Below, piece by piece: positions 49,636 through 64,000 of a DNA stretch of 64,000 nt. Origin of the DNA: Amycolatopsis methanolica 239 (lineage in GTDB: Bacteria; Actinomycetota; Actinomycetes; Mycobacteriales; Pseudonocardiaceae); contig NZ_CP009110.1 of assembly GCF_000739085.1 (NCBI RefSeq), positions 62,001 to 126,000 of the forward strand, given 5' to 3'. The notes under the pieces are model-generated. The model was not told the DNA's origin and did not search any database. It was given only the letters and a program-made list of their open reading frames with translations. Positions within the stretch are counted from its first letter, which is position 1. Each line of letters opens with the position of its first letter. A program made the translations under genes and the position numbers.

Positions 49636-50742
49636 GTGCGTGACCCCCGCCGGTGGCCGGCCCTCGTGGACGTGGTGCTGACCCTCGTCCCGATGGGGTT
49701 CGTCCTCGGGGCGACCACCGTGGCCGGCCGGGTGCAGCACCACCCGCTCGACCTGACCGGCTACCTGTGGCTCACCGCGGCCGCGTTGCCGTTGTTCGCC
49801 GTGCGGCGGGCGCCGTTGCCGGTCTTCGTCGTCACCGCCGCGCTGACCTGGGCCTACTACAGCACGGACCACCCGGGCGGCCCGGCGGTCGTGGTGCCGA
49901 CCATCGCGCTGTTCGTGCTCACCCGCGTCCGTGGACCGCTCGTCGCGGGAATCGCCGGGTCGGCCGTCATCCTGGCCGGGCTGGTCGTCTACTTCGCCCG
50001 CGGCGGCGAACTCGTGCTCGACGCCCGCGCCGGGTTGTTCGTCGTCTGGCTGGTCGCCGTCCTCGGCATCGGCACCGCCGTCCGCAACCGCGTCGCGGCC
50101 AGGCTCGCCGCCGAGCAGGAGGTCGCCGAGCGGCAGTCCCGCCTGGCCGAGCAGGAGCGGCTGCGCATCGCCCGCGAGGTGCACGACGTCGTCGCGCACA
50201 GCCTGGCCATGATCAACGTCCAGGCCGGCGTCGCGGTGCACGTCGCGGACCGGCGGCCGGACCAGGCCGTGGCCGCGCTGCAGGCGATCAAGGAGGCCAG
50301 CGCCACCGCGCTCGCCGACCTGCGCGCCACCGTCGCCGTGCTGCGTTCCGGTCAGGGCCTCGGGCCCGCGCCCAGCCTGAAACAGCTCGGCGAACTGCTC
50401 GACCACACCCGCGCCACCGGCCTCACCGTCCGCGTCCACGGCTCGCCCGGCGATCTGCCCGCCCCGGTCGACGGCGCGGCCTACCGGATCCTGCAGGAGT
50501 CGCTCACCAACGTCGTCCGGCACGCCAACCAGCCCCGCACCGTCGACATCCGCTTCGCCCGCCGGGACGGGCAGTTCCGGCTCGTGGTGCGGGACGACGG
50601 CCGCGGCGCGGAAAGCCCCACCGTCGGCAACGGCCTGCGGGGCATGCAGGAACGCGCCGCCGCGCTCGGCGGCAAGGCCGAGGCCCGCGCGGTCGACGGC
50701 GGTTTCGAGGTCCGCGCGGAACTACCCCTGGAGGAGACATGA
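49636..50742 (+). CDS. NarL-type sensor histidine kinase (HisKA_3, DesK-like)
   Basis: The 368-aa kinase has an N-terminal membrane domain (about 10-148) with four to six helices and no large external loop. The dimerisation helix carries the phospho-acceptor His183 in IAREVHDVVAHS, then the HATPase region with RILQESLTNVVRHA (N box near 270), VRDDGRG and NGLRGMQERAAALGG. The small sensor suggests it reads membrane or lipid-state signals. It starts leaderless at GTG 49636. The stop overlaps the response-regulator ATG. Confidence 0.93.
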   Translation: MRDPRRWPALVDVVLTLVPMGFVLGATTVAGRVQHHPLDLTGYLWLTAAALPLFAVRRAPLPVFVVTAALTWAYYSTDHPGGPAVVVPTIALFVLTRVRGPLVAGIAGSAVILAGLVVYFARGGELVLDARAGLFVVWLVAVLGIGTAVRNRVAARLAAEQEVAERQSRLAEQERLRIAREVHDVVAHSLAMINVQAGVAVHVADRRPDQAVAALQAIKEASATALADLRATVAVLRSGQGLGPAPSLKQLGELLDHTRATGLTVRVHGSPGDLPAPVDGAAYRILQESLTNVVRHANQPRTVDIRFARRDGQFRLVVRDDGRGAESPTVGNGLRGMQERAAALGGKAEARAVDGGFEVRAELPLEET

Positions 50743-51407
50743 TCCGCGTCGTGCTCGCCGACGACCAGGCGCTGGTGCGCGCCGGGTTCCGCGTGCTGCT
50801 GGAGACCGAGGACGGGTTCGAGGTCTGCGGCGAGGCCGCGGACGGGGCGCAAGCGCTTGCCCTGGCGCGGGAACACCGGCCGGACGTGGTTGTCATGGAC
50901 ATCCGGATGCCCGGGGTCGACGGCCTCACCGCGACCCGCGAGATCACCGGCGACCCGGACCTGGCCGAGGTGAAGGTGCTGGTCCTGACCACCTTCGACG
51001 TCGACGAGTACGTGTTCCAGGCGCTGCGCTCGGGCGCCAGCGGGTTCCTGCTGAAGGACACCGATCCGGTCGAGCTGCTCCGCGCGCTGCGGGTGGTCGC
51101 CGCCGGCGAGGCACTGCTCGCGCCGACCGTCACCCGCAGGCTGATCAGCGAGTTCGTCGGCCGCCCGGAGAACCGGCGCATCGACGCCGGCGCGGTCCGG
51201 CAGATCACCGAGCGCGAACGCGAGGTGCTGGCGCTGGTCGCGGGCGGGCTGTCCAACGACGAGATCGCCGCGCAGCTGGTGATCTCCACGGCCACCGCGC
51301 GCACGCACGTCAGCCGCATCATGACGAAACTCGGCGCGCGGGACCGCGCCCAGCTCGTCGTGCTCGCCTACGAGTCCGGCTTGGTCACGCCGCGCGGCTC
51401 ACGGTGA
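50739..51407 (+). CDS. NarL/LuxR-family response regulator
   Basis: The 222-aa regulator has a receiver domain with acidic pair DD at 8-9, phospho-acceptor Asp54 in VVVMDIRMPG, Thr in VLTTFD and Lys in FLLKD. The LuxR-type HTH is near 155-215: ITEREREVLALVAGGLSNDEIA, ISTATARTHVSRIMTKLGA. It is coupled to the kinase gene by ATGA with GGAGG upstream. Targets are unknown. Its 3' end overlaps the small membrane protein gene on the opposite strand by 40 bases. Confidence 0.94.
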   Translation: MIRVVLADDQALVRAGFRVLLETEDGFEVCGEAADGAQALALAREHRPDVVVMDIRMPGVDGLTATREITGDPDLAEVKVLVLTTFDVDEYVFQALRSGASGFLLKDTDPVELLRALRVVAAGEALLAPTVTRRLISEFVGRPENRRIDAGAVRQITEREREVLALVAGGLSNDEIAAQLVISTATARTHVSRIMTKLGARDRAQLVVLAYESGLVTPRGSR

Positions 51408-51555: not shown

Positions 51556-53361
51556 TCACCCGTTGGGGGTGACCGGCTCACCTGCGAGGATGCGCGTCAG
51601 CGACCAGACGCGGTGCGGGTCGAGGTCCACCGGGCGGGGCGCCGGATCGGGCCGCAACCGGCTCAGCAGGACCTGCTGGACCAGCGCGGTCGGCACGCCG
51701 CGGGTGGCCAGCCGCCGCCAGAACACGTGGTCCTCCAGGCCGTCGACCAGCGGGTCCTCGGTCCAGCCGCCGAACGACTCGACCAGTTCGCGGCACACCA
51801 GGTACCCGCTGCCCAGGTAGGGCAGCTCCGCCAGCCGCCGCTCCTCCGGGGGCAGCGCGGCGACCAGTCCTTCGACCGGGTCGGCCACCGGGCAGTGCAC
51901 CACGTCGACGTCAGCGGACGCCTCGACCAGCCGTTCCAGAAGTCGGCGCGAGGCCCGCAGCCCGCCGTCGAGCACCAGTAGCCACGGCGCGGCCGAGCGC
52001 TCCAGCAGCCGGTTGCGCGTGTACCCGCGGCCCAGCGGCAGCTCGTGCCGCAGCACGTCGGCGGGCCGGGGGCGGGGCCGCGGCGCGACACCGTCTTCGC
52101 CGACGAGGATCCGCCGCGGCAGCACTGTGCCGGCGAGCAGGTCGCGCACCAGCGGGTCCGGATCCGGCTCGCCGGGGCGGCGGACCAGCAGCACGTCCAC
52201 CTCCGCCCGGTCGGCGTCCGGGAACACGGTCGGCGCCGCCGAGGGCAGCCACTCCACGCCGGACGTGCGGCGCGCGTCCACCGTCTGCTGGCCCATGCGG
52301 GTGGCCAGCGGCGGGTTCTCGGCCGGCGCGCCGAGCGACCGGGTGCCGGCGAACCGCACGTCCCAGGAGGGGGTGTCGATCGCCAGCGGCCGCGGCGCGT
52401 CGACCGCGGCGGTCTCGGCGAGCGGCGGGCTCGCGGGCATCCCGGGCGAGGCGGTCAGCACCTGTTCGGCCAGCTCGACCAGGGTCTTCGCGGACGCCAG
52501 CGGCTCCAGCGCGGTGCGCACGAACTCGTACCCCGCCATCCGCAGGTCGCGCTCCCGCTGCGGATCCGCGGCCAGCGCGGTGGCCGCCGCACCCAGCGAC
52601 TCCGGCCGCGTCACGACCAGGTGCGTGCCGGACACCAGCGGCGCCAGGTCCGTGGACGGCTCGGTCAGCACCACGCAGCCGTTGCACAGCGCCTCCAGCA
52701 CCCGCACCCACTCCAACGCCCGGGACCGCTCGCGGTGCAGGTTGAGCAGGAACCGCGAGTTCGCCAGGTGCCGGAACTTCGCCTCGCCGGGCAGGAAGTC
52801 GACCCGCTGCGGGCCCATCGGCTCGTGCGGCGGGGTGAGCAGCCGGACCCGCAGGTCGGCGAGGTCGTCGGCGTAGGACGCGAGCAGCTTCGACCGGCGC
52901 CGCTCCGCGGTGCCGAGGTAGGTCACGTCGATCTCGCGGGCGCTGTACGGGTCGCCGCCCCACGCGTCCCACAGCGGCGAGTACCCCAGCTGGAAGTGCT
53001 CGACGGGGATGCCGCGGCGGCGCAGTTCGGCGGTCGAGTCGTGGTTGATGTCCACCGCGCCGGCCAGCCCCGGCAGCAGGGCCGCGCTGCGCTCGAAGGT
53101 CGCCGTGCCCGGGTGTTCGACGCAGAAGGCGATGGTGCGGCGGCGCTGCTCCTCGGTCGGCTGATCGGCCTCCGGGGTCACCACGAAGTACTCGTGCGGC
53201 ACCACGACGTAGACCGTGTCGGCGTCCGCGTCCGGGTAGCGGCCGGTCGCCGTGGTCGCGCGGAACCCGGCCCGCCGCACCGAATCGGCGACCACCTCCA
53301 TCAGCTCCGCCATGAACCCGGAGCCGCCGGTCGCGGACACGAAGCAGAGCTGCGCGGTCAT
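51556..53361 (-). CDS. two-domain glycosyltransferase (GT-B/CgeB-like plus GT-A-like)
   Basis: The 601-aa protein has an N-terminal half like CgeB/GT4 enzymes: VYVVVPHEYFVV, VDINHDSTAELRRRGIPVEH, IDVTYLGTAERRRSKLL, RFLLNLHRERSRALEWVRVLEAL with a CNGCVVLTE loop. After a Pro/Ala-rich linker near 315-375, a GT-A-like half follows (VDVLLVRRPGE, GRGYTRNRLLERSAAPWLLVLDG, YLGSGYLVCRELVESFGGW, EDHVFWRRL). The DxD of GT-A appears as LDGG, so activity of this half is uncertain. ATG 53361 overlaps the coiled-coil gene stop. It is last in the glycan operon. Confidence 0.82.
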   Translation of the reverse strand: MTAQLCFVSATGGSGFMAELMEVVADSVRRAGFRATTATGRYPDADADTVYVVVPHEYFVVTPEADQPTEEQRRRTIAFCVEHPGTATFERSAALLPGLAGAVDINHDSTAELRRRGIPVEHFQLGYSPLWDAWGGDPYSAREIDVTYLGTAERRRSKLLASYADDLADLRVRLLTPPHEPMGPQRVDFLPGEAKFRHLANSRFLLNLHRERSRALEWVRVLEALCNGCVVLTEPSTDLAPLVSGTHLVVTRPESLGAAATALAADPQRERDLRMAGYEFVRTALEPLASAKTLVELAEQVLTASPGMPASPPLAETAAVDAPRPLAIDTPSWDVRFAGTRSLGAPAENPPLATRMGQQTVDARRTSGVEWLPSAAPTVFPDADRAEVDVLLVRRPGEPDPDPLVRDLLAGTVLPRRILVGEDGVAPRPRPRPADVLRHELPLGRGYTRNRLLERSAAPWLLVLDGGLRASRRLLERLVEASADVDVVHCPVADPVEGLVAALPPEERRLAELPYLGSGYLVCRELVESFGGWTEDPLVDGLEDHVFWRRLATRGVPTALVQQVLLSRLRPDPAPRPVDLDPHRVWSLTRILAGEPVTPNG

Positions 53362-53858
53362 GAAGTCCGCCGCCGCACGGCCCGCAGCGGCGCGGTGACC
53401 CGCCAGCTCACCGTCGCCCGCGTCGCGTCCAGTTCCCGGGCCAGCTCGGCGGCCCGCTGCTCGGCGGCGAGCGTGCCGCTCTCGGTGAGCGGCGCCTCGG
53501 CCTGCGCCGCGCCGGACAGCTGCAGCTCGGCGTCCAGCAGCCGGAGCCGCAGCCGGTCGCGCTCGCCGCGGGTCTCGGCCAGCTCGGCGCGCAGCGAATC
53601 GCGTTCGGCGCGGGCCACCAGCACGTCCCGCGCCAGCGCGTCGGCCTGCTCGGCGCGTTCGGCGACGCCGGCCAGTTTCTCGACCTGCTTCACCAGCTGG
53701 TCGCGGTGCTTGGTCAGCTCGTGGATCTGCAGTTCGGACTCGCGCAGCTCGGTGCGCAGCCGCTCGCGCTCCTCGGTGAACGCGACCCGCTCGGCCCGCA
53801 ACCGGGTCAGCTCGGCGCGCACCGCACCGGGAAGTTCATCGGGCAGCTCGTCGGTCAT
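53358..53858 (-). CDS. coiled-coil protein linked to glycosyltransferases
   Basis: The 166-aa protein is almost all heptad-repeat helix (TRLRAERVAFTEERERLRTE, HRDQLVKQVEKLAGV, AERDSLRAELAETRGERD). It ends with ATVSWRVTAPLRAVRRR, a SWR(V/L)TAPLR tail that recurs at the C-termini of glycan-biosynthesis proteins with coiled coils. It may act as a scaffold or chain-length ruler for the adjacent glycosyltransferases. It overlaps both neighbours by four bases (ATGA). Confidence 0.75.
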   Translation of the reverse strand: MTDELPDELPGAVRAELTRLRAERVAFTEERERLRTELRESELQIHELTKHRDQLVKQVEKLAGVAERAEQADALARDVLVARAERDSLRAELAETRGERDRLRLRLLDAELQLSGAAQAEAPLTESGTLAAEQRAAELARELDATRATVSWRVTAPLRAVRRRTS

Positions 53859-55738
53859 CCCCGCTCCTTCACCAGCTCGGTGAGCACGTCGGCGTACTCG
53901 GCGGCGTAGCCCGCCGGGTCCAGCCAGCCGTGCAGCTTCTCGTAGGCGTTCGCGGCGATCGCGCGCCGCCGGGCCGCCGGGGTGTCCAGGGCACGAAGTA
54001 GCGCGACGGTGAGCGCGTCCGCGTCGTTGGGCTCGAACAGCCAGCCGCTGCGCCCGTCGGCGATCATCTCCCGCGCGCCGAACACGTCGCTGGCGACCAC
54101 CGGCAGACCGCAGCACACGGCCTCCAGGATCGAGCGCGGCAGCGACTCCACGTCGGAGCTGTTCACGAACAGGTCCGCCGCCTCGAACCACGGCGCCGGG
54201 TCGCGCTGGATCGGCACCAGGTCGACCCAGTCCCGCAGGCCGGTCCGCTCGGTGAACTCGGCGAGCGCCAGCCCGTACGGCGACGGGTGGTGGCCGACGA
54301 TGCTCAACCGGATCCCGGGGTGCGCCCGCCGGACCCGGTCCATGGCGCTGATCAGCAGGCCCTGTCCCTTGCGCGGTTCCAGCACGCCGACGTTGAGCAG
54401 CAGCGTGGTGTCCTCGGGGATGCCGAGTTTCCGCCGCGCCGCGCGACGGTCGCGTTCGGACACCTGACCGCCGTAGGTGACCATCGGCGTGCCGTAGCGG
54501 ATCGTGCGGCAGCGCGCCGGGGTCGAGAACGGCAGGAACATCTCGCGCGTGGCGTCGGCGACGAACAGCAGCCGGTCCGCCTCGCGCAGCGTGCTCACCC
54601 AGCGCTCGCGCACCGGCGGCAGCAGGCCCGCCGGCCCCCAGTTCTGGTACGAGAAATCGTTCAGGTCGAAGCTCTCGTGCAGCACCCACGCGGTCGGCAG
54701 CCCCGCCCGGATCGCCGCGTCCGCGCCGGGGAACGCGCCGAGCGTGTTGACCAGCGCGACCGAGGCGTCGGTGCCGCGCGCGAACTGGGCGAGCTCGGCG
54801 ATGTGCCCTTCGTAGGAGGCGACGTCGTGCACGCGGTACGGCGAGGTGAGGTGCACGTCGATGCCGTGCGCTTCGCAGTCCGCGCGCAGTTCGCCGTCGA
54901 GCTGGGTGACGACCGTGATGCGCCAGCCGTGCCGCGTCGCGAGCCGGTCCAGCAGCTCCTGCAACCACAACTGCCCGCCGCCGACCGCGAGGCTGTGCGT
55001 GAACACCAGAACGTGCCGCGGATCCGCGCCGCTACGCGGCCGCGCCAGCGCCTTCCGCGTGCGGTCGGCGAGCTGCGCGGCCAGCGCGACGTCGGTGTCC
55101 TCGGCCGCCGGGTTGGACAGCACCACCTCGCGCGCGTCGGAGGTCCACTCGCCGGACAGCTCGCCGCGGACGCGGATCCGCACCGACAACGCGCGGTCCT
55201 CGCCCGCCGGCAGGTCGATGGGCACCCGCGCCTCGAACCCGCTGACGCCGGCGTCCGGGAAGTCCGGCAGGTGGTCGGCCACGTCCGGCCGCGGCAGGCG
55301 GGTGCGGGCGCGGACCGGCTCACCGCCGTCGACCAGGACCTCGACCAGCGACGGCGCACGCGAGTCGAGCAGCACCCAGCCACGCACGAACACGACGTCG
55401 CCCTGCGGGTTGTCGCCGTGCTTCGGGGTGTCGATCTCGTACAGCCGCAGCGGTTCCTCGTCGCCGAAGCGGCCGACCTCCACCACGGCGCCGGTCAGCG
55501 CGTCGCCGTTCGCGGCGCGGACCACGACCTCGTGCCTGCCGGTCGGCACCGGGTCCGGCGTGCGGATCAGCAGACCGGTCGTGCCCGGCGGTTCGGTCCC
55601 GGTGTCGTGGCGCCGCACCTCCGCCTCGGACCCTCCGATGTGGACGGTCACGGTCTCGCCCGCGGTGACCCAGCCGCGCAGCTCGAACAGGTGCCCCACC
55701 GGCCGTCCCGGCCGCACCAACCCGGCCGCTGTGTTCAT
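53855..55738 (-). CDS. GT4-family glycosyltransferase with N-terminal beta-sandwich region
   Basis: The 627-aa protein has an N-terminal roughly 215-residue beta-rich part with two repeated modules (VGHLFELRGWV and VVFVRGWVLLDS; TGRHEVVVRA and RALSVRIRV). The GT4 GT-B enzyme follows: VLVFTHSLAVGGGQLWLQELL, TAWVLHESFDL, LLNVGVLEPRKGQGLLI, and SSDVESLPRSILEAVCCGLPVVASD with the retaining EX7E motif near 550. It transfers a sugar from a nucleotide donor in the cytoplasm. The start ATG 55738 overlaps the methyltransferase stop by four bases. Confidence 0.87.
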   Translation of the reverse strand: MNTAAGLVRPGRPVGHLFELRGWVTAGETVTVHIGGSEAEVRRHDTGTEPPGTTGLLIRTPDPVPTGRHEVVVRAANGDALTGAVVEVGRFGDEEPLRLYEIDTPKHGDNPQGDVVFVRGWVLLDSRAPSLVEVLVDGGEPVRARTRLPRPDVADHLPDFPDAGVSGFEARVPIDLPAGEDRALSVRIRVRGELSGEWTSDAREVVLSNPAAEDTDVALAAQLADRTRKALARPRSGADPRHVLVFTHSLAVGGGQLWLQELLDRLATRHGWRITVVTQLDGELRADCEAHGIDVHLTSPYRVHDVASYEGHIAELAQFARGTDASVALVNTLGAFPGADAAIRAGLPTAWVLHESFDLNDFSYQNWGPAGLLPPVRERWVSTLREADRLLFVADATREMFLPFSTPARCRTIRYGTPMVTYGGQVSERDRRAARRKLGIPEDTTLLLNVGVLEPRKGQGLLISAMDRVRRAHPGIRLSIVGHHPSPYGLALAEFTERTGLRDWVDLVPIQRDPAPWFEAADLFVNSSDVESLPRSILEAVCCGLPVVASDVFGAREMIADGRSGWLFEPNDADALTVALLRALDTPAARRRAIAANAYEKLHGWLDPAGYAAEYADVLTELVKERG

Positions 55739-57798
55739 CGTCCCGCCTTCAACGTCTCTTCGGCGTCCTTGACCAGGATCAGCACGTCCTGGTGGCCGTC
55801 CCAGCCCGCCTCGACGTACCCGGCGAGGCGCAGCCGCGGGGTGAGGACGTGCCCGGTCACCCACTCCGGGGTGCTCAGCGAGATGCCGTACCCGGGCTGG
55901 CCGGGGTAGTCGGCGTAGCCGAACCCGTGGTCACGGTAGTCCGCCAGCACCCGGGCGTGGTCCGCGGCCGTCAGGCCGTACTCGCCGCCGTTGGCCATCC
56001 GCCACGCGACGCGGCGGCCGTGCGTGGTGACCACCGCGACCCCGCCCGGCGCGAGCGCGCGCTCGAAGTAGCCGAGCAGCGCGTCCCACGCCGCGATGTC
56101 CAAGTGGGTCAGCACCGAGCCGGACCAGATCAGGTCGATGTCGCTGACCTGCGGGATCTCCTCGATGCGCACCGACGCGGGCAGCCCGGTCGCGCCGAAG
56201 AACCGCACGCAGTGCTCGACGCCGTCCAGTTCGATGTCGGAGGCGACGAGTTCGGCGTCCGGGAAGGCGGCCCGGAACGTGCGCAGCACCCGGCCATAGC
56301 CGCAGCCGAAGTCGAGCACCCGCCGCGGCGCGGGCCGACCGGCGGCCTGCAGCCCGTGCAGGCACGCCCGCAGCGCCTGCCCGGCCACCGCGAAGTAGTG
56401 CTCGGTGTTGCCGCGGAACATCGAGTCGCCGGACGCGATGATCCGGTCCATCCGGGTCAGGGTGCGGGCGACCTGCGCGTCCAGTTCGGTGGTGGCCGGG
56501 GTGTGCCGCGTGATCTCCTCGGCGAGACGGCGGCGCCAGGCCAGGCGCATCGCATCCCGCTCGTGGTCCAGACCGGGGCCGGAAGTGACGCCGCAGCGCC
56601 GGATCGCCTGGAACTCCGCCTCCCGCTCGGCGGCCGCGTCGACGAACGCCGTCGGCCGGTCGAGCAGGACACCGAGCCAGGCGGCCAGGTCCCGCACCGT
56701 CGTGCCGGGCGCGGCGCCGGCCCAGCCGGCACGGGCGAGTTCGTCGGCGAGCAGCAGCAGGCCCCGGTCGATCACCTCGTCGGCGGTCGTCCCGGCGCGC
56801 TCCCACTCCAGGTCGATCGCCTGTGGCGGGTCGACGGCCAGCACGTTCGACGGGATCAGGTCCCACGACGGGTTGGTACGCACCAGATCCGCCCACGCGG
56901 TCAGCAGCTCCGCGGCCCGCCACGGCTGCTCGTTCAGCACCTCGGGCAGCGTCGGGGCGTCGACCACGACGTCCGTCCACTCGCGCACCGCGACCGGCCC
57001 CGGTTGCTGCGGCAGCAGGGGAGTGCGGCGGATTTCGTCGCCGACCACGTCCGCCCGGGTGCACCAGCGGGCCGCGCGGTCGGTGTTGAAGTAGGTGGCG
57101 AGTACGTCGTCCGGCCAGAGCCGGGCGGCGGGTTCGCCTGCCGACGCGAGGAACAGCAGGCCGTCCACGGTGTCCAGGCCGAGACCGCCCTCGACCATCT
57201 CCGCCCAGCGCTCGTCACGTCCGGACAGCTCCACCGCGAGCCGCGGGTGCCGGTCGAGCAGTTCGGCGGTGATGACGGCGCGGGTGATCCGGTGACCGGG
57301 GAGGCAGCCGAGGACCTTGTGGACGGTCAGCCCGGCCTCGGCCAGCCGACGCTCCCAGTGGCGGCGCGACTGCCCGCCCGGCCGGCCCACACCGAGCCGG
57401 TTCGGCACGGCGAGGCACAGCACCCCGCCGGGCTTCAGCCGGTCCGCGTGCTCGACGTCGGACGCGACGACCAGGTCGTACCGCTCGCCGGGAACCTCGT
57501 CCAGGACGCGCACCCCGGGCAGATCGGCGGTGCGGGCCCGGACGGCTTCCGCGTGGTCCGCCTCGACGGCGTCGACCCGCGCCACCTGCTCGCCGAGGTA
57601 CCGCGTCACCGCGCCGTGCCCCGCGCCCACTTCGAGCACGTGCGCGTCCGGCGGCAACCGGAGCGCCCGCAACGCGTTGGCCCGGCCGTGGTCGAGCTGG
57701 TCCCGCTCGCCCGGCGACAGCGCCGCGAAGTGCAGCTCGTCGGACAGCGCGGAGTGGTCGGCGGCGTTGCGGATGATCTCGGCGACCAGGTCGCTCAC
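55735..57798 (-). CDS. two-domain SAM methyltransferase of the glycan operon
   Basis: The 687-aa protein has two methyltransferase-like domains. The first, with VLEVGAGHGAVTRYLGEQV near 53-71, looks reduced after motif II. The middle (about 290-440) has ideal helices without a named fold (AIDLEWERAG, REAEFQAIRRCGVTS). The second domain has VLDFGCGYGRVLRTFRAAFP near 505-524, DIDLIWSGSVLTHLD and ALAPGGVAVVTTHGRR, typical of active enzymes. It could methylate a glycan end to cap chain growth. GTG 57798 is two bases after the upstream stop. Confidence 0.85.
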   Translation of the reverse strand: MSDLVAEIIRNAADHSALSDELHFAALSPGERDQLDHGRANALRALRLPPDAHVLEVGAGHGAVTRYLGEQVARVDAVEADHAEAVRARTADLPGVRVLDEVPGERYDLVVASDVEHADRLKPGGVLCLAVPNRLGVGRPGGQSRRHWERRLAEAGLTVHKVLGCLPGHRITRAVITAELLDRHPRLAVELSGRDERWAEMVEGGLGLDTVDGLLFLASAGEPAARLWPDDVLATYFNTDRAARWCTRADVVGDEIRRTPLLPQQPGPVAVREWTDVVVDAPTLPEVLNEQPWRAAELLTAWADLVRTNPSWDLIPSNVLAVDPPQAIDLEWERAGTTADEVIDRGLLLLADELARAGWAGAAPGTTVRDLAAWLGVLLDRPTAFVDAAAEREAEFQAIRRCGVTSGPGLDHERDAMRLAWRRRLAEEITRHTPATTELDAQVARTLTRMDRIIASGDSMFRGNTEHYFAVAGQALRACLHGLQAAGRPAPRRVLDFGCGYGRVLRTFRAAFPDAELVASDIELDGVEHCVRFFGATGLPASVRIEEIPQVSDIDLIWSGSVLTHLDIAAWDALLGYFERALAPGGVAVVTTHGRRVAWRMANGGEYGLTAADHARVLADYRDHGFGYADYPGQPGYGISLSTPEWVTGHVLTPRLRLAGYVEAGWDGHQDVLILVKDAEETLKAGR

Positions 57799-57800
57799 GA

Positions 57801-59018
57801 TCAGCCCACCGGATAGGGCAGCAACATCGAGCGGACGGTCCGCTGGTAGGCGCCCGACAGCGCGGCCTCGTCGGCCAGGTCGCCCTGCGTCACGTTGACG
57901 CGGATCAGGTTCTCGCCCGACACCCAGGTGGCGCGGTAGACGATCGGTGAGGCGACGAGCTTGTGGAACACCACCTGCGGCGGGATGTTCGGCAGCTGGT
58001 CGCTGATCAGCACCAGGCCGTTGCGCACGTAGTACTGGCGCAGCTGGCCGGCGAGCGCGGTCGCGGTGGCGGAGCTGTCCAGCGGGATGACCGTCACCGA
58101 GATCTTCTCGTTGCCGGGGCCGGTGGCGTCCGGCTGGCGCTGCGAACCGCGCCAGGCGACCTCCTGCACCGAGCGGCTGCTCAGCAGCGTGGCCTCGCCC
58201 TCGTCCATGATCCCCAGGTCGACCAGCCTGCTGACCGGCAACAGACCGCTCTGGCCGTCCGCGGTGCCCTCGGTCGGCGGGATCTTGTCCAGCAGCGCCT
58301 GGTTGGGCGAGTTGCTGGCGGCGCTCGAGGTGGGCGGCGGCTGCGTGGTCGTGGTGGCGGCCTGGTTGTCGTCACCGCCGGACGTGGTGAGGAAGATCGT
58401 CAGGCCCGCGGCGACCAGCACCACGACGACCGCGACGGAGATCCAGACGGCCTTGCCCTTGCCCTTGGCGGGCTTGTCGTCGAAGGCCTCCGGACCCTGC
58501 GCGACCGGGCTGATCGGCGGGAAGTCGGAGCCGCCCCACGGCGGGCTCGCGTCGGACTCCGGCGCGTTCCACGGCTGCTGCACCGGCTGCGGACCGGACT
58601 GGGGGAACCCGGCGGGCGGGGAGGCCGGGAAGCCCGCGGGAGGTGACTGCGGTGCGGGCGGGTTGGCCACGTACTGGGTGCGCTCCGGGTCCACCGGCGG
58701 CCTGGCCTGCCAGTTCGGCGAGACGGCCTGCGTCGGCTCCGCGGAGAAGTTCTGCGGCTGTGGCTGCTGCTGGGGCGGCTGCGGCGTGCCCTGCGGCGGG
58801 CTGATCGGCGCGATCACCTGCGTCGAGTCCGCGGAGTTGTCCTGCTGCTGGGGCGCCGGCTGTTGCTGGGGCGCGGGCTGCTGCGGCTGGGACGCGCTGT
58901 CGCTGTAGGACACCGCGGACGAGAGCACCTGGTCCCGGCGGACGCGGTAGTCGTCCGCGGAGAGACGTCCCGAGGCAAGCTCTTCGTCCAGCTTGCGCAA
59001 CTCCTCCTGCCAGGACAC
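57801..59018 (-). CDS. membrane-anchored Q/P-rich protein, first gene of the glycan operon
   Basis: The 405-aa protein starts MSWQEELRKLDEELASGRLS then ADDYRVRRDQVLS, a SHOCT-like short helical pair. A long Q/P/A-rich linker (about 38-170) follows, then one transmembrane helix (VWISVAVVVVLVAAGLTIFL near 190-210) and an extracytoplasmic domain to the end. GTG 59018 has AGGGGGC upstream. It shares N-terminus, layout and C-terminal fold hints with the protein at 60806-62605, so they are paralogues. Coupling to the methyltransferase (two-base gap) suggests a link to surface glycan assembly. Confidence 0.8.
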   Translation of the reverse strand: MSWQEELRKLDEELASGRLSADDYRVRRDQVLSSAVSYSDSASQPQQPAPQQQPAPQQQDNSADSTQVIAPISPPQGTPQPPQQQPQPQNFSAEPTQAVSPNWQARPPVDPERTQYVANPPAPQSPPAGFPASPPAGFPQSGPQPVQQPWNAPESDASPPWGGSDFPPISPVAQGPEAFDDKPAKGKGKAVWISVAVVVVLVAAGLTIFLTTSGGDDNQAATTTTQPPPTSSAASNSPNQALLDKIPPTEGTADGQSGLLPVSRLVDLGIMDEGEATLLSSRSVQEVAWRGSQRQPDATGPGNEKISVTVIPLDSSATATALAGQLRQYYVRNGLVLISDQLPNIPPQVVFHKLVASPIVYRATWVSGENLIRVNVTQGDLADEAALSGAYQRTVRSMLLPYPVG

Positions 59019-59174
59019 CCGGTAGCCCCCTAATCTGCTCTGGACGAGGCGGAACGCGTCCGCCGGATAGCGCTACGGTGACGACGCACATTGTGCACGC
59101 CTACCCTGCTCATCGCCGGTGAGGGTCATTTCGTGACCTTGTTCTGGTTAGGGTGTGAGGGAGGAGGGGGCGAG

Positions 59175-60809
59175 ATGGCGGCACGCTGGCCCGCCGTGGC
59201 CGCGGTCGCCGGGGGAACCGCACTCATCGGCCTGCACGGCTGGTCCTACGGCAACTGGATCAACGACGACGCGGCGATCACCTTCGCGTACGCGCGCGAC
59301 CTGGTCGACGGCGCGGGGCCGGTGCTCCAGCCGGGTGCGGAACCCGTCGAGGGGTTCTCGAACCCGGCCTGGCTCGTCCTGCTGGTGCTGGGGAAGGTGC
59401 TGCGCCTGTTCGATACCGGCGCGATCTTCGGTGTGCCCGACTATGTCCTGTTCCCGAAGATGCTCGGATTGCTGTGCTGCGCCGGTGTTCTCGCCGCGTG
59501 CCACTTCGCGGTGAGTCGCGTCACGCGGTGGGCATGGCTGGTGACGTTGTTCGCGGGCGGGTTGCTGGCCGCGATCCCGTCGTACGTGATCTGGTCGCTG
59601 TCCGGTTTGGAGAACCCGCTGTACGCGCTGGCGGTGGCGTGGCTGGCGGCGCTGTTGTTCCGCGCGGTGGTGGACGGGCGGGTGGCGGCCGTGCGGGTCG
59701 GGCTGGCCGCCGGTCTGCTGGCTGTGCTGGCGGCGCTGACCAGGCCGGACGGTGCGATCTTCGTGCTGGCCTACCCGGTGGTGGCGCTGGTGTTCGCGCG
59801 GCGGTGGCGGGCGCTGCTTCCGGCGGGGGTGTCGGTGCTGGCGTTCGCGGTGCCGTACGGCGCGTACCTGTTGTGGCGGCACGCGGAGTTCGGCCGGTGG
59901 GTGCCGAACACGGCGGTGGCGAAGAACCAGCAGCCGCCGTCGTGGTCGAACGCCGGGCGGGTGGTGGAGCCGGTGGAGTACCTCGGCTGGCCGGTGGTGC
60001 TGGCCGGGCTGGTGACCGTGGGGTTGGCGTTCTGGCTGGTCCCGGCGTTGCGGCGGCCGTTGGTGGCGTGGCTGGTGCCGCTGGTGCTCGCGTTGGCGGC
60101 GTACTGCGTGCTCAACCCGGAGCCGGGCGGCGAGTTCCGGTTCGCGACTCCGTTGTGGACGATGGCGGCGCTGGTCGCGGCGCTGGCGGCGGTCGAGGTG
60201 ATGCGGGCGTTGTCGGTGCGGTGGCGGGCGGCGCTGGCGGTCGTGCTGGTGGCCGCGGCGGTGCCGAGCGCGCCCGCGCTGGCCGACTCGGGCCGCGGGT
60301 TCGCGAGTGGTCCGGTGGTGCCGTTGTGCCAGATCGCGGAGCGGTACGGGCGGTTGTTCAACGGGTACGCGGACACGATCGGCCTGCGGGAGGGGTCGGC
60401 GCTGTTGCCGGACGTCGGCGGGACGGCGCTGACCAGCCGGTTGCGGGTGGTGGACTCGGTCGGGCTGGCGGACGCGCGCATCGCGGACCTGGTGTCCACG
60501 GGGGACTTCCCGGGGTTGCGGGACTACGTGTTCGACGAGGTCAAGCCGACGTTCATCCACACGCACGTGCCGTGGACCGACCTGACGGGGCTGACGTCGG
60601 ACGGGCGGCTGGCGGTCGAGTACGCGGCCGTGGTGCTCGACCGGACGGGCAAGAACGGCGACTGGGTGCGGCTGGACGCGCTCGACGGCGACGACCTGGT
60701 GAACCTGCGGGCGTACGCGCGGGTGACCGTGCCGCGCGTGGAGGCCTCGCGCGCGGCGGCGGTGACCGGGCGGTGCGGTGACGTGCTGCGGCCCGGGCAG
60801 GTGCCCTAG
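59175..60809 (+). CDS. GT-C membrane glycosyltransferase (AftB-like arabinofuranosyltransferase family)
   Basis: The 544-aa protein has about nine to ten membrane helices. The first external loop carries WINDDAAITFAYARDLVDG near 28-46 with the acidic pair expected for GT-C catalysis, followed by LQPGAEPVEGFSNPAWLVLL, as in AftB-like and related mannosyltransferases. The C-terminal roughly 160 residues are extracytoplasmic. Such enzymes use polyprenyl-phosphate sugars. ATG 59175 has GGAGG upstream. It shares a CTAG stop with the convergent Q-rich protein gene. The sugar is not determined. Confidence 0.8.
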   Translation: MAARWPAVAAVAGGTALIGLHGWSYGNWINDDAAITFAYARDLVDGAGPVLQPGAEPVEGFSNPAWLVLLVLGKVLRLFDTGAIFGVPDYVLFPKMLGLLCCAGVLAACHFAVSRVTRWAWLVTLFAGGLLAAIPSYVIWSLSGLENPLYALAVAWLAALLFRAVVDGRVAAVRVGLAAGLLAVLAALTRPDGAIFVLAYPVVALVFARRWRALLPAGVSVLAFAVPYGAYLLWRHAEFGRWVPNTAVAKNQQPPSWSNAGRVVEPVEYLGWPVVLAGLVTVGLAFWLVPALRRPLVAWLVPLVLALAAYCVLNPEPGGEFRFATPLWTMAALVAALAAVEVMRALSVRWRAALAVVLVAAAVPSAPALADSGRGFASGPVVPLCQIAERYGRLFNGYADTIGLREGSALLPDVGGTALTSRLRVVDSVGLADARIADLVSTGDFPGLRDYVFDEVKPTFIHTHVPWTDLTGLTSDGRLAVEYAAVVLDRTGKNGDWVRLDALDGDDLVNLRAYARVTVPRVEASRAAAVTGRCGDVLRPGQVP

Positions 60810-62605
60810 TTCGGCGGGAGTGCCGTGGCCAGGGAGGTCTTGGTCTGGGCGAGGCGTTCGGTCAGCGAGTTCGGGTCGCCGTCGAGGCCCTGGGACACCC
60901 AGATCGCGACGGCGTAGCTGCCCGAGGTGTACCACGTGCCGCTCATCTGGCCTGCCGAGTTGCTGCCGGTGACGGCCTTCGCGTCGGTCGATCCGGACGG
61001 GACGGTTTGCAGGCCGGCGGTGAGGGAGTGCTCGTAGAGGCGGCGGGTGATCGAGGCCGCGGCGGCGGGTGAGCTGGCGGGGACGACCAGGACGAGGTAG
61101 CCCTGCGGGCCCTGGGACGAGCCGCGGAAGATGACCTGGCCGGCGCCGTTGTCCTTGAAGAGCTGGCCTTCCTCGCGGGAGTACAGCTTGAGGTCGATGC
61201 CCTGCTCGACGGTCAGGGTGCCGTTGTTGGTGCTCGGGGTGCCCGGCAGGGTCGGCAACCGCGCCTCGACGGCCTCCGGCGAGCTGACGGCGGAGGTGGT
61301 CGGCCCGGCGGTCGTGGTGGTGGCGTTGTTGCCGCGCAGGAACCACACGCCGGCCGCGACCATCGCGAACACGACGACGACGCCGAGGGTGATGAACAAC
61401 CAGGTGGGCTTGCGCTTCGGCGGCGCCTGCAACACGGGCGCGGCGTCGAAGGGAAGCTGCTGGCCGGGCCCGTGCAGGGGCGGCGGCGGGGTCATGCTGG
61501 GCAACGGCCGGGCAGGCGGAGGAACCGGATTGGTGACGACCGTCGGAGCGTCCTCGATGGAGGGGAAGCGCATCGAATCGGTGGCCCGCTCGTCGGCCGG
61601 GCTGGGGGCGCTCGTGGGCTTCTTGGTGGCGAGCAGCTGCGCGGAGATGCTCTGCGTGGGCCCTTCCTCAGTGGCGAGCGCACTGCCCACCTCGGGAGCC
61701 TGCTCACCCTGCTGCTGGCTCTGGCCAGCCTGGGGCTGGGCAGCCAGGGGCTGCCCAGCCTGCGGGTGACTCTGCGCTTGGCCACCCTGCTGCTGGCCGG
61801 CCGGTGGCTGCCCGGCCTGAGGCTGGCTCTGCGGCTGACCGCCCAGTTGCCCACCGTGCTGCTGGCTCTGCGGCTGGCTGCCCTGTGGTGTGCCGCTTTC
61901 CGGCTGGCTGCCCTGCTGCTGGCCAGCCTGTGGCTGGTCGCTGTGTGGCTGCCCCTGGCCGGCCTGCGGCTGCCCGGCTTCGGGCTGCGGCTGGGCCCCT
62001 GGCTCAGCCTGGCCACCCTGAACCTGCCCGACCTGCCCCGCCTCGACCTGACCCCGACCAGCCTGCGGCTGCCCCGCCGGAGTCTGCCCCGTCGCGCCGG
62101 TCTGAACCTGCCCGTACACGTCCTGCGGCTGCCCGAACTGCGGCTGCCCCACCTGGGGCTGAACCCCCGCCTGCGGCTGGCTCTGCGGCTGCCCAACCGG
62201 CGGCTGCCCCGGCACGCCCGGCCCCTGCGGCACCCCGCCCACCGGCTGATGCGCGTACTCGCCCGGCGGAACCTGCCCCTGCGGCCACCCCTGCGGCGCG
62301 AAACCCTGCGGCACCGCGCCCCCCGGCACCGCGCCCTGCGGCGCCCCCTCCTGCGGCCACCCTTGGGGCGCCTGCGCCCACGGCGCCTCCCCCGGCTGCG
62401 GAGCGAATCCCGGACCGGCCGGATTCGCACTCTGCCACTGAGGCGCCCCGTCAACCCGCCCCCGCGGCGAAGCCACCGACGCCGGCGCCACATTGCCCGA
62501 CGCGGCGGCGAGCAGCTCGTCCCGCATCTTGCGGTGCTGGTGCTGGGTGATGGTTCCGTTGGCGAGCTCGGCGTCCAAACGGCGCAGCTCGTCCTGCCAA
62601 CTCAT
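60806..62605 (-). CDS. membrane-anchored Q/G/P-rich repeat protein, paralogue of the glycan-operon anchor protein
   Basis: The 599-aa protein opens MSWQDELRRLDAELANGTIT (helical pair), then about 290 residues of low complexity built from QPQAGQPQ-, QGQ- and PQG-type units (about 50-330). A linker with Thr and Pro, one transmembrane helix (TWLFITLGVVVVFAMVAAGV near 410-430) and an extracytoplasmic domain (FKDNGAGQVIFRGSSQGPQG, TWYTSGSYAVAIWVSQGLDG) follow. ATG 62605 has GAGGAGCC upstream. The long glutamine repeat may vary in length between strains. It is convergent with the GT-C gene and shares its CTAG stop. Confidence 0.8.
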   Translation of the reverse strand: MSWQDELRRLDAELANGTITQHQHRKMRDELLAAASGNVAPASVASPRGRVDGAPQWQSANPAGPGFAPQPGEAPWAQAPQGWPQEGAPQGAVPGGAVPQGFAPQGWPQGQVPPGEYAHQPVGGVPQGPGVPGQPPVGQPQSQPQAGVQPQVGQPQFGQPQDVYGQVQTGATGQTPAGQPQAGRGQVEAGQVGQVQGGQAEPGAQPQPEAGQPQAGQGQPHSDQPQAGQQQGSQPESGTPQGSQPQSQQHGGQLGGQPQSQPQAGQPPAGQQQGGQAQSHPQAGQPLAAQPQAGQSQQQGEQAPEVGSALATEEGPTQSISAQLLATKKPTSAPSPADERATDSMRFPSIEDAPTVVTNPVPPPARPLPSMTPPPPLHGPGQQLPFDAAPVLQAPPKRKPTWLFITLGVVVVFAMVAAGVWFLRGNNATTTTAGPTTSAVSSPEAVEARLPTLPGTPSTNNGTLTVEQGIDLKLYSREEGQLFKDNGAGQVIFRGSSQGPQGYLVLVVPASSPAAAASITRRLYEHSLTAGLQTVPSGSTDAKAVTGSNSAGQMSGTWYTSGSYAVAIWVSQGLDGDPNSLTERLAQTKTSLATALPPN

Positions 62606-62701: not shown

Positions 62702-63223
62702 CTACCCCGCTGGCAGCAGCGGCTCCACCTTCTCGGCGAAGGCCTGCGCGTTCGGACAGCCCTGAGCGTCTTCACTGGCCCGCGCCATGGTCGCCAACAC
62801 CAGGGCGAGGGCGTGTTCTCCGACCCCCACCGCGACAGCACAGCCGCCGGTGGGAATGTCGGCCTGCAGGGCGTCGCGACCGTTGATCGAGATCTCCCGT
62901 GCCCCCGTGTTGTCCGCGGCGAATCCGCTCAGCCCTTGCGTGGAATCGAGCGCCAGGCTGTAGGTGATGAATTCCGGTTTCGACGCTGTGCACTGGTTGC
63001 GCGCGCTCTTGTTCTCGCCGGGGTTGAATCCCTGACCCGCGTTGAGCTGGTCCAGCAGCTGGCACGCGTTGAGCCCGGCGAACACATCCGAATTCCCCGG
63101 GCTCGAGCTGGGAGCCGGACCGGGCGCGGGCAACGCGCTGCCGGAGACAGTGCTGGTGCAGGCGGTTCCGGCCGCCAATGTGCAAGCGACGGCCACGATG
63201 GCCCGGGCAGATCGACGGTTCAC
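62702..63223 (-). CDS. DUF3558-like lipoprotein
   Basis: The 173-aa protein has a lipoprotein signal peptide with lipobox LAAGTAC (Cys 22), a Ser/Pro-rich linker (ALPAPGPAPSSSPG), then a domain with ACQLLDQLNAGQGF, NQCTASKP and GGCAVAVGVGEHALALVLA. Three cysteines after the lipobox are conserved in DUF3558 proteins, which are exported in mycolic-acid actinobacteria. GTG 63223 overlaps the preceding gene by four bases. Function unknown; similar lipoproteins often follow ESX-type helical proteins. Confidence 0.82.
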   Translation of the reverse strand: MNRRSARAIVAVACTLAAGTACTSTVSGSALPAPGPAPSSSPGNSDVFAGLNACQLLDQLNAGQGFNPGENKSARNQCTASKPEFITYSLALDSTQGLSGFAADNTGAREISINGRDALQADIPTGGCAVAVGVGEHALALVLATMARASEDAQGCPNAQAFAEKVEPLLPAG

Positions 63224-63663
63224 CGAGGTTCCTGATTCCTGAGGGTGTTGAGCGCCTTGGTAGCCGCCTCGTCCGAGGCGTCGTACTTGCTGATAGCAGT
63301 TTCGATGGCTTGGCGAAGCGTTTCCAGGGTGTCTCGCGCCGTGACGAAAACCTGAACCAGTGACTGGTCGTCCGAGTCCATCGCGCTGAGGAAATGCGCG
63401 GCCGCTCGCTGTGCGTACTCGTCGTTGCCGAACTTAGGCGCACGCTGCAGAAGGTGCACCCGTTGGCCGACCTCGTTCAACCGTGTCTGCATCTGCGTCA
63501 CCGCCCGGCGCAGGTGTGTTCCCGTCTCCTCGTCCACCGCCCAGCGGCCGGCTTGCGCGTCCGCCAGCATGCGCTTCGCGTCGGTGTTCATCGTGTTCAG
63601 TTGCTGCTCGCCGCCGAAGACGTTGGCCACCTGGGTCGCCACGTCGCCGGAGTTGTCGCTCAT
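63220..63663 (-). CDS. 147-aa helical protein, possibly ESX/WXG100-like
   Basis: The protein is nearly all alpha-helical (AVTQMQTRLNEVGQRVHLLQ, VFVTARDTLETLRQAIETAI, SKYDASDEAATKALNTLR), with GGEQQLNTMNTDAKRMLADA at the start and no signal peptide. A WXG motif is not clear, although ADAQAGRWAVDEETG holds a Trp near the expected turn. Its size and pairing with a DUF3558-like lipoprotein resemble small ESX-associated proteins, but this is weak evidence. ATG 63663 has AGGGAGGG upstream. Confidence 0.7.
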   Translation of the reverse strand: MSDNSGDVATQVANVFGGEQQLNTMNTDAKRMLADAQAGRWAVDEETGTHLRRAVTQMQTRLNEVGQRVHLLQRAPKFGNDEYAQRAAAHFLSAMDSDDQSLVQVFVTARDTLETLRQAIETAISKYDASDEAATKALNTLRNQEPR

Positions 63664-63725
63664 GAGCCCTCCCTCGCTCGGCCAGCACAATATCGCCCGG
63701 GCCGCCCCGCTGCCACAACCAGCGA

Positions 63726-64000
63726 CTACGCCGCCTCCTCCAGGTACGCCGCCGCTTGCAGGGTGAACAGTGACGCGTAATCCCCGCCCTGGGACATCAG
63801 CTCCTCGTGCGTTCCTTCCTCCGCCAGGCGGCCCCGGTCGAGCAGCAGGATCTTCTCCGCCTGCCGCACCGTCGAGAACCGGTGCGAGATGTACAGCGTG
63901 GTCCGGCCCTCGGACAGCGCGCGCAGCCTCGCGAACAAGTCGTGCTCCGCCGCGGCGTCCAGCGCCGACGTCGGCTCGTCCAGGATCAGCACCGGCGCGT
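63726..64000 (-). CDS. ABC exporter ATPase domain, 3' end (runs off the window)
   Basis: Only the last 91 codons are present. They show Walker B LILDEPTSALD, D-loop, H-loop YISHRFSTVRQAEKILLLDRG, then GTHEELMSQGGDYASLFTLQ, the C-terminus of an MsbA/MDR-type exporter with fused membrane and ATPase domains. The substrate cannot be determined. It is 62 bases downstream of, and in the same direction as, the helical protein gene, but the gap and the missing upstream part prevent an operon call. Confidence 0.9.
   Translation of the reverse strand, partial: APVLILDEPTSALDAAAEHDLFARLRALSEGRTTLYISHRFSTVRQAEKILLLDRGRLAEEGTHEELMSQGGDYASLFTLQAAAYLEEAA

Follow-up and report, generated by a model that had tools for sequence, protein, structure and literature searches.

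A putative methyltransferase–kinase chain terminator in a conserved glycan operon of Amycolatopsis methanolica

Chain termination in Gram-negative bacteria and a related actinobacterial locus

To our knowledge, the coiled-coil rulers and terminating enzymes characterised come from O-antigen synthesis of the Gram-negative, ABC-exporter-dependent kind. ORF6 from Klebsiella O7 comprises a methyltransferase, a 223-residue unannotated kinase resembling AmiN, an Ig-like module, a coiled coil and two GT2 modules. The protein caps the O-antigen chain with a methyl-phosphate, which ends it, and a D441A substitution abolishes its kinase activity (PMC11231755). By comparison, the WbdD kinase of E. coli O9a is similar to eukaryotic protein kinases, and a difference from the O7 kinase is reported (PMC3482155, PMC11231755). 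A search of the open literature found no Gram-positive or actinobacterial terminator of this methyltransferase–kinase type.

Here, a related locus is described from Amycolatopsis methanolica 239 (complete genome, 7.24 Mb), in a window of 64,000 nucleotides (contig NZ_CP009110.1, positions 62001–126000; G000:C1), which is the whole stretch of DNA analysed; the named genomes nearest to it are those of Amycolatopsis tucumanensis, A. deserti and A. thermalba. Five genes, named g1 to g5, share with ORF6-O7 the succession of a methyltransferase and an unannotated, putative kinase domain (223 residues there, ~247 in g2), the kinase aspartate and DxxPxN motif (D313, N318 and D329 of the window's g2 occupy the positions predicted for a kinase domain), the published SAM-binding residues, conserved in intact actinobacterial g2 proteins, and the presence of glycosyltransferases and a coiled coil within one system. 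The same logic of methyltransferase, kinase, coiled coil, membrane-associated tail and partner glycosyltransferases is seen in WbdD–WbdA of E. coli O9a. The locus differs from ORF6-O7 in that the coiled coil and the glycosyltransferases are separate genes, the coil thus lying outside the g2 polypeptide, in that g2 of the window has an eroded first methyltransferase domain (MT1) and carries a further one (MT2) by fusion, and in having no Wzm/Wzt. Furthermore, Amycolatopsis is Gram-positive and without LPS.

Together, these features suggest that some Gram-positive bacteria may cap a surface sugar chain much as Gram-negatives stop O-antigen. If true, chain termination would also operate in Gram-positive envelopes, through a methyltransferase–kinase module encoded in an operon that is conserved in Pseudonocardiaceae and has no exporter of its own, and this would point to a surface glycan not yet known, in antibiotic-producing genera. 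The genomes would also provide a natural series of a bifunctional cap enzyme losing and replacing its methyltransferase.

Layout and conservation of the operon

The five reading frames all lie on the minus strand, at 51556–59018 of the window: g1 (57801–59018; GTG start, 405 aa), g2 (55735–57798; GTG start, 687 aa), g3 (53855–55738; 627 aa), g4 (53358–53858; 166 aa) and g5 (51556–53361; 601 aa). A 2-base gap separates g1 from g2, and the g2/g3, g3/g4 and g4/g5 junctions are ATGA overlaps, confirming the first-pass annotation of five coupled genes with junctions overlapping or 2 bases apart. The order and adjacency of g3-g4-g5 are kept in all 24 of the g4-bearing cassettes compared, with identical short overlaps within them in close relatives, and g1-g2 lie upstream in nearly all neighbourhoods fetched from relatives. 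In three genomes (L070–L072) g1-g2 are oriented opposite to g3-g4-g5, and in Actinokineospora (L014) the order is g3-g4-g5-g1, with no g2 homolog found adjoining. This conserved arrangement indicates that the gene order is more than chance; the gene-order search proposed by the first-pass annotation, which would have counted against a system had the genes lain apart in most relatives, found them together. Both the operon structure and its assignment to glycan synthesis are firm.

g5 is present in 10 of 61 near relatives and in 21 of the 397 genomes of the order; with few candidates scored per genome, a class sample (395 genomes) added none and a phylum sample two, and a search of plasmids for g5 relatives gave none. 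A g2 homolog containing the kinase-like domain is present in 40/390 family genomes. Presence of the cassette is patchy across relatives, often with the same two-component system alongside, and a patchy distribution with recurring neighbours argues for a genuine unit subject to loss or exchange. In the window, the histidine kinase and response regulator adjoin the cassette at 49636–51407; counterparts of the response regulator in other genera of the Pseudonocardiaceae are 78–88% identical, and often also adjoin the cassette.

g1 begins with a short SHOCT/DUF1707-like segment (the DUF1707 match being weak, in 16 of 17 aligned members) and a Pro/Gln-rich linker, and has a single apparent transmembrane stretch and an extracytoplasmic domain; searches placed neither this domain nor the protein clearly in a family. 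It is tied to the system in the distant relatives L091 and L093 too. Divergent from it lies a gene for an AftB-like membrane protein (59091–60809, plus strand), which has no Pfam or NCBIfam match and which, from our own reading of the sequence, is presumably of GT-C type; within the window's clade, as in L062, it adjoins the cassette, and in L014 it is near. Next comes a g1 paralog (60806–62605, minus strand), found near g1 in many relatives, and this stretch beyond g1 (59091–62605) recurs beside the cassette in several of them. Further out, at 62702–63992, a DUF3558 gene, a small conserved protein and an ABC transporter end are conserved in the window's clade.

The first-pass description of g3 as a GT4 enzyme is borne out by PF00534 (Glycos_transf_1; E 3.3e-32) and PF13439 (Glyco_transf_4; E 1.4e-8), while its N-terminal ~250 residues, beta-rich by eye, matched no known family in searches. 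The coiled-coil-type protein g4, previously described as ending in SWRVTAPLR, has the C-terminus SWRVTAPLRAVRRRTS; a motif SW[RK]VT[AK]PLR is indeed conserved in 24/24 g4 proteins, followed by a basic tail, and is not terminal, as AVRRRTS comes after it in the window. A literature search for SWRxTxPLR variants yielded no paper. Heptad periodicity is modest by a crude test (z = 2.2 in the window, −1.4 to 4.8 in relatives). g4-like coils are fused to a methyltransferase in L088, L089 and L094, and to a GT4 in L091–L093; all of these adjoin g5, and in L088 and L089 g3 as well. In L015, the order is g5, a short coil-type protein and a methyltransferase.

The N-terminal domain of g5 matches PF13524 above the cut-off and resembles CgeB-like glycosyltransferases, from which g5 differs by an extra, degenerate module. 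This C-terminal part is termed GT2-like because its counterpart in the distant relative L015 has a clear GT2 domain (PF00535, 6.6e-23). Where GT2 enzymes have DxD, the main Pseudonocardiaceae clade has L-D-[GA]-G (D-G-G in the window), whereas distant relatives retain D[AS]D (LLDADN in L015). With DxD replaced by LDGG or LDAG, the module is probably inactive, so that of the "dual glycosyltransferase" originally proposed two modules stand, the second of them degenerate.

The kinase-like domain of g2 and the fate of its methyltransferases

Pfam detects only methyltransferases in g2, namely the eroded class I domain MT1 (residues 1–189; 57232–57798, minus strand) and a second class I domain, MT2 (residues 437–687; 55738–56490, minus strand). 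The intervening ~247 residues (190–436; 56491–57231, minus strand) have no Pfam match and were revealed by alignment; the protein had been annotated as a two-domain methyltransferase, a description that holds for its two ends and misses the kinase-like domain between them. In the window this domain contains W312-D313-L-I-P316-S-N318 ... I-D329-L-E-W. WDLxPxN and IDLEW are invariant in the middle-domain alignment, and their spacing is that of a kinase catalytic loop and metal-binding Asp. D443, P446, N448 and D461 (Pseudomonas numbering) are likewise invariant in 41/41 actinobacterial proteins.

A tblastn search of plasmids with an intact g2 from the relative L059 connected the family to Gram-negative proteins, matching Pseudomonas asturiensis WP_024686765 (1457 aa; 33.8% over 92% of length, E 1e-46) and Citrobacter braakii WP_326979343 (35% over 60%). 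Both genes immediately follow those for an ABC permease and an ATPase (a Wzm/Wzt-type exporter), the Citrobacter gene also being near dTDP-rhamnose genes. The Pseudomonas protein contains a methyltransferase, an unannotated middle and two GT2 domains, a layout that agrees with ORF6-O7, and has Y28, Y66, G91, G93, E112 and Y158 at the exact residue numbers published for ORF6-O7. This identity of SAM-site numbering, as compared with the published description, is the ground for assigning it to the ORF6-O7 family; its motif Asp is residue 443 against D441 in ORF6-O7, an equivalence drawn from colinearity. The kinase-like domain alone matched the Pseudomonas protein with a profile E of 4e-13, where the highest-ranking of 3000 shuffled decoys reached 0.19; for the Citrobacter protein the value was much weaker (0.004), with a weak motif match outside the methyltransferase. 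Only in the actinobacterial genome G417 does the methyltransferase–kinase continue into a long coiled-coil-like tail; homologs of g3 and g5 lie next to it.

As whole-g2 fold searches filled up with methyltransferases, the middle domain was folded alone (six sequences), giving a model with pTM 0.73 and pLDDT mostly >90 in the C-lobe-like part. The best Foldseek matches are kinase-like and not significant (best E 0.02). With VIA-align, all 50 entries listed are kinases of the APH, choline, sugar or protein type or relatives of these; among the matches listed the best has Z 6.7, rmsd 5.7 and 157 aligned, with APH-type kinases ranked first and protein kinases lower (Z all <8). Single fold matches are weak, and it is the uniform kinase character of these model-based matches that counts. 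WbdD is missing from the sequence and fold matches listed, which is not evidence of absence. Comparison of the kinase-like domain alone with Pfam and PDB sequences produced chance ribosomal L3 matches, one sub-threshold phosphotransferase and nothing useful.

The window's MT1 retains the equivalents of G91, G93 and E112, and has lost those of Y28, Y66 and Y158; without the full SAM-site set, the window's g2 is a variant, not a member, of the ORF6-O7-type terminators. All six residues are found in 6 of 41 actinobacterial proteins (one such genome has an adjacent MT2 gene), and G417 loses Y66 only. The tyrosines are lost in 34 of the 41. Of these, 11 carry a fused MT2, 6 have it as an adjacent gene, 9 have it elsewhere in the genome and 8 lack it; the tallies come from related genomes that are not independent. 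The coincidence of MT1 loss with MT2 presence, MT2 being a separate gene in several relatives, suggests methyltransferase replacement; as a strict rule, replacement was rejected, given the eight genomes with an eroded MT1 and no MT2. A Gram-positive terminator of separate proteins, with the kinase as its constant core, a decaying ancestral MT1, and an MT2 recruited beside it and then fused, moved or lost, can be proposed tentatively. Orphan MT2 genes lie far from the cassette in genomes with an eroded MT1 at L064:9139–9903, L066:9317–10084 and L067:9162–9929.

A model for chain termination and its alternatives

The operon may build and terminate a lipid-linked surface glycan, with g2 as the chain terminator, a reading to which we give a probability of roughly 0.6. 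In the scheme that we infer, in terms of enzyme activity, substrate, a ruler role for g4 and export, the glycan would be made lipid-linked at the cytoplasmic membrane, g3 and the GT-B domain of g5 would add sugars, and g4, through its coiled coil and basic tail, would hold the glycosyltransferases at the membrane. The kinase-like domain of g2 would then phosphorylate the non-reducing end of the chain, and a methyltransferase, probably MT2 in the window's clade, where MT1 is eroded, would methylate the phosphate or the sugar, at which point growth stops. g4 might additionally serve as a ruler; with the terminator on one protein and the coiled coil on another, this would require a complex. The glycan operon with a capping methyltransferase envisaged by the first-pass annotation gains support from the homology to O-antigen terminator-type proteins and from g3 and g5 relatives in Wzm/Wzt loci. 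Its chain-length idea had been framed without the kinase-like domain, which is the real link to those systems, and the locus has no exporter.

No Wzm/Wzt exporter genes lie beside the operon, and a search for Wzt_C in the window genome found none. The sole Wzm-like permease found in this genome is one weak match, beside an ABC ATPase, and its neighbours are, by our own reading of the sequences, presumably GlfT1-, DprE1- and GlfT2-like; this presumed arabinogalactan galactan locus is at L129:4743–12638 (G000:C1:244742–252637). That the genome's one such permease sits there, and that an AftB-like protein flanks the operon, would fit a cassette with no separate polysaccharide, whose target for modification or capping is the galactan of arabinogalactan and whose exporter is the galactan Wzm/Wzt. 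Arabinogalactan is general in the window's order, however, whereas the cassette is patchy in the counts given above for g2 and g5, and its relatives occur in dedicated polysaccharide loci. On a Rhodococcus qingshengii plasmid (L122), a g3 relative shares an ABC-exporter polysaccharide locus with genes for Wzm, Wzt and dTDP-sugars; in G1205 and G1310, Wzt_C and Wzm genes are found in the neighbourhood of g5 relatives. Galactan capping is considered very improbable.

Two further alternatives concern g2 itself. It could decorate sugars internally, by phosphorylation or O-methylation and with no control of chain length, leaving g4 as a membrane scaffold only; in the whole-g2 fold search MT2 resembles the sugar methyltransferases TylM1, DesVI and CalS10, among many others, MT2 can be absent, g2 carries no fused coiled coil, and the decorating enzymes AlgX-like and Acyl_transf_3 are among the neighbours in relatives. 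Set against this, the characterised protein of g2-like architecture, ORF6-O7, is a terminator (PMC11231755), and g2 homologs are found in ABC-exporter polysaccharide loci, making internal decoration rather unlikely. It is quite improbable that the middle domain does no more than position the chain, as a pseudokinase or glycan-binding module, with the chemistry left to the glycosyltransferases and MT2: the D, N and D positions are invariant throughout the actinobacterial set, and the equivalent domain of ORF6-O7 is catalytic, D441A being dead (PMC11231755), despite the weak fold scores, an N-lobe basic position that is mostly Arg, not Lys, and a nearest Foldseek match to the kinase homology domain of Rv3910. 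On the sequence comparisons made here, a terminator role for g2 is the best explanation.

In some relatives, AlgX-type SGNH and acyltransferase-3 genes lie beside the cassette (L072:2116–3444, L072:7913–9058 and L012:11826–13124), which suggests O-acetylation of the glycan there.
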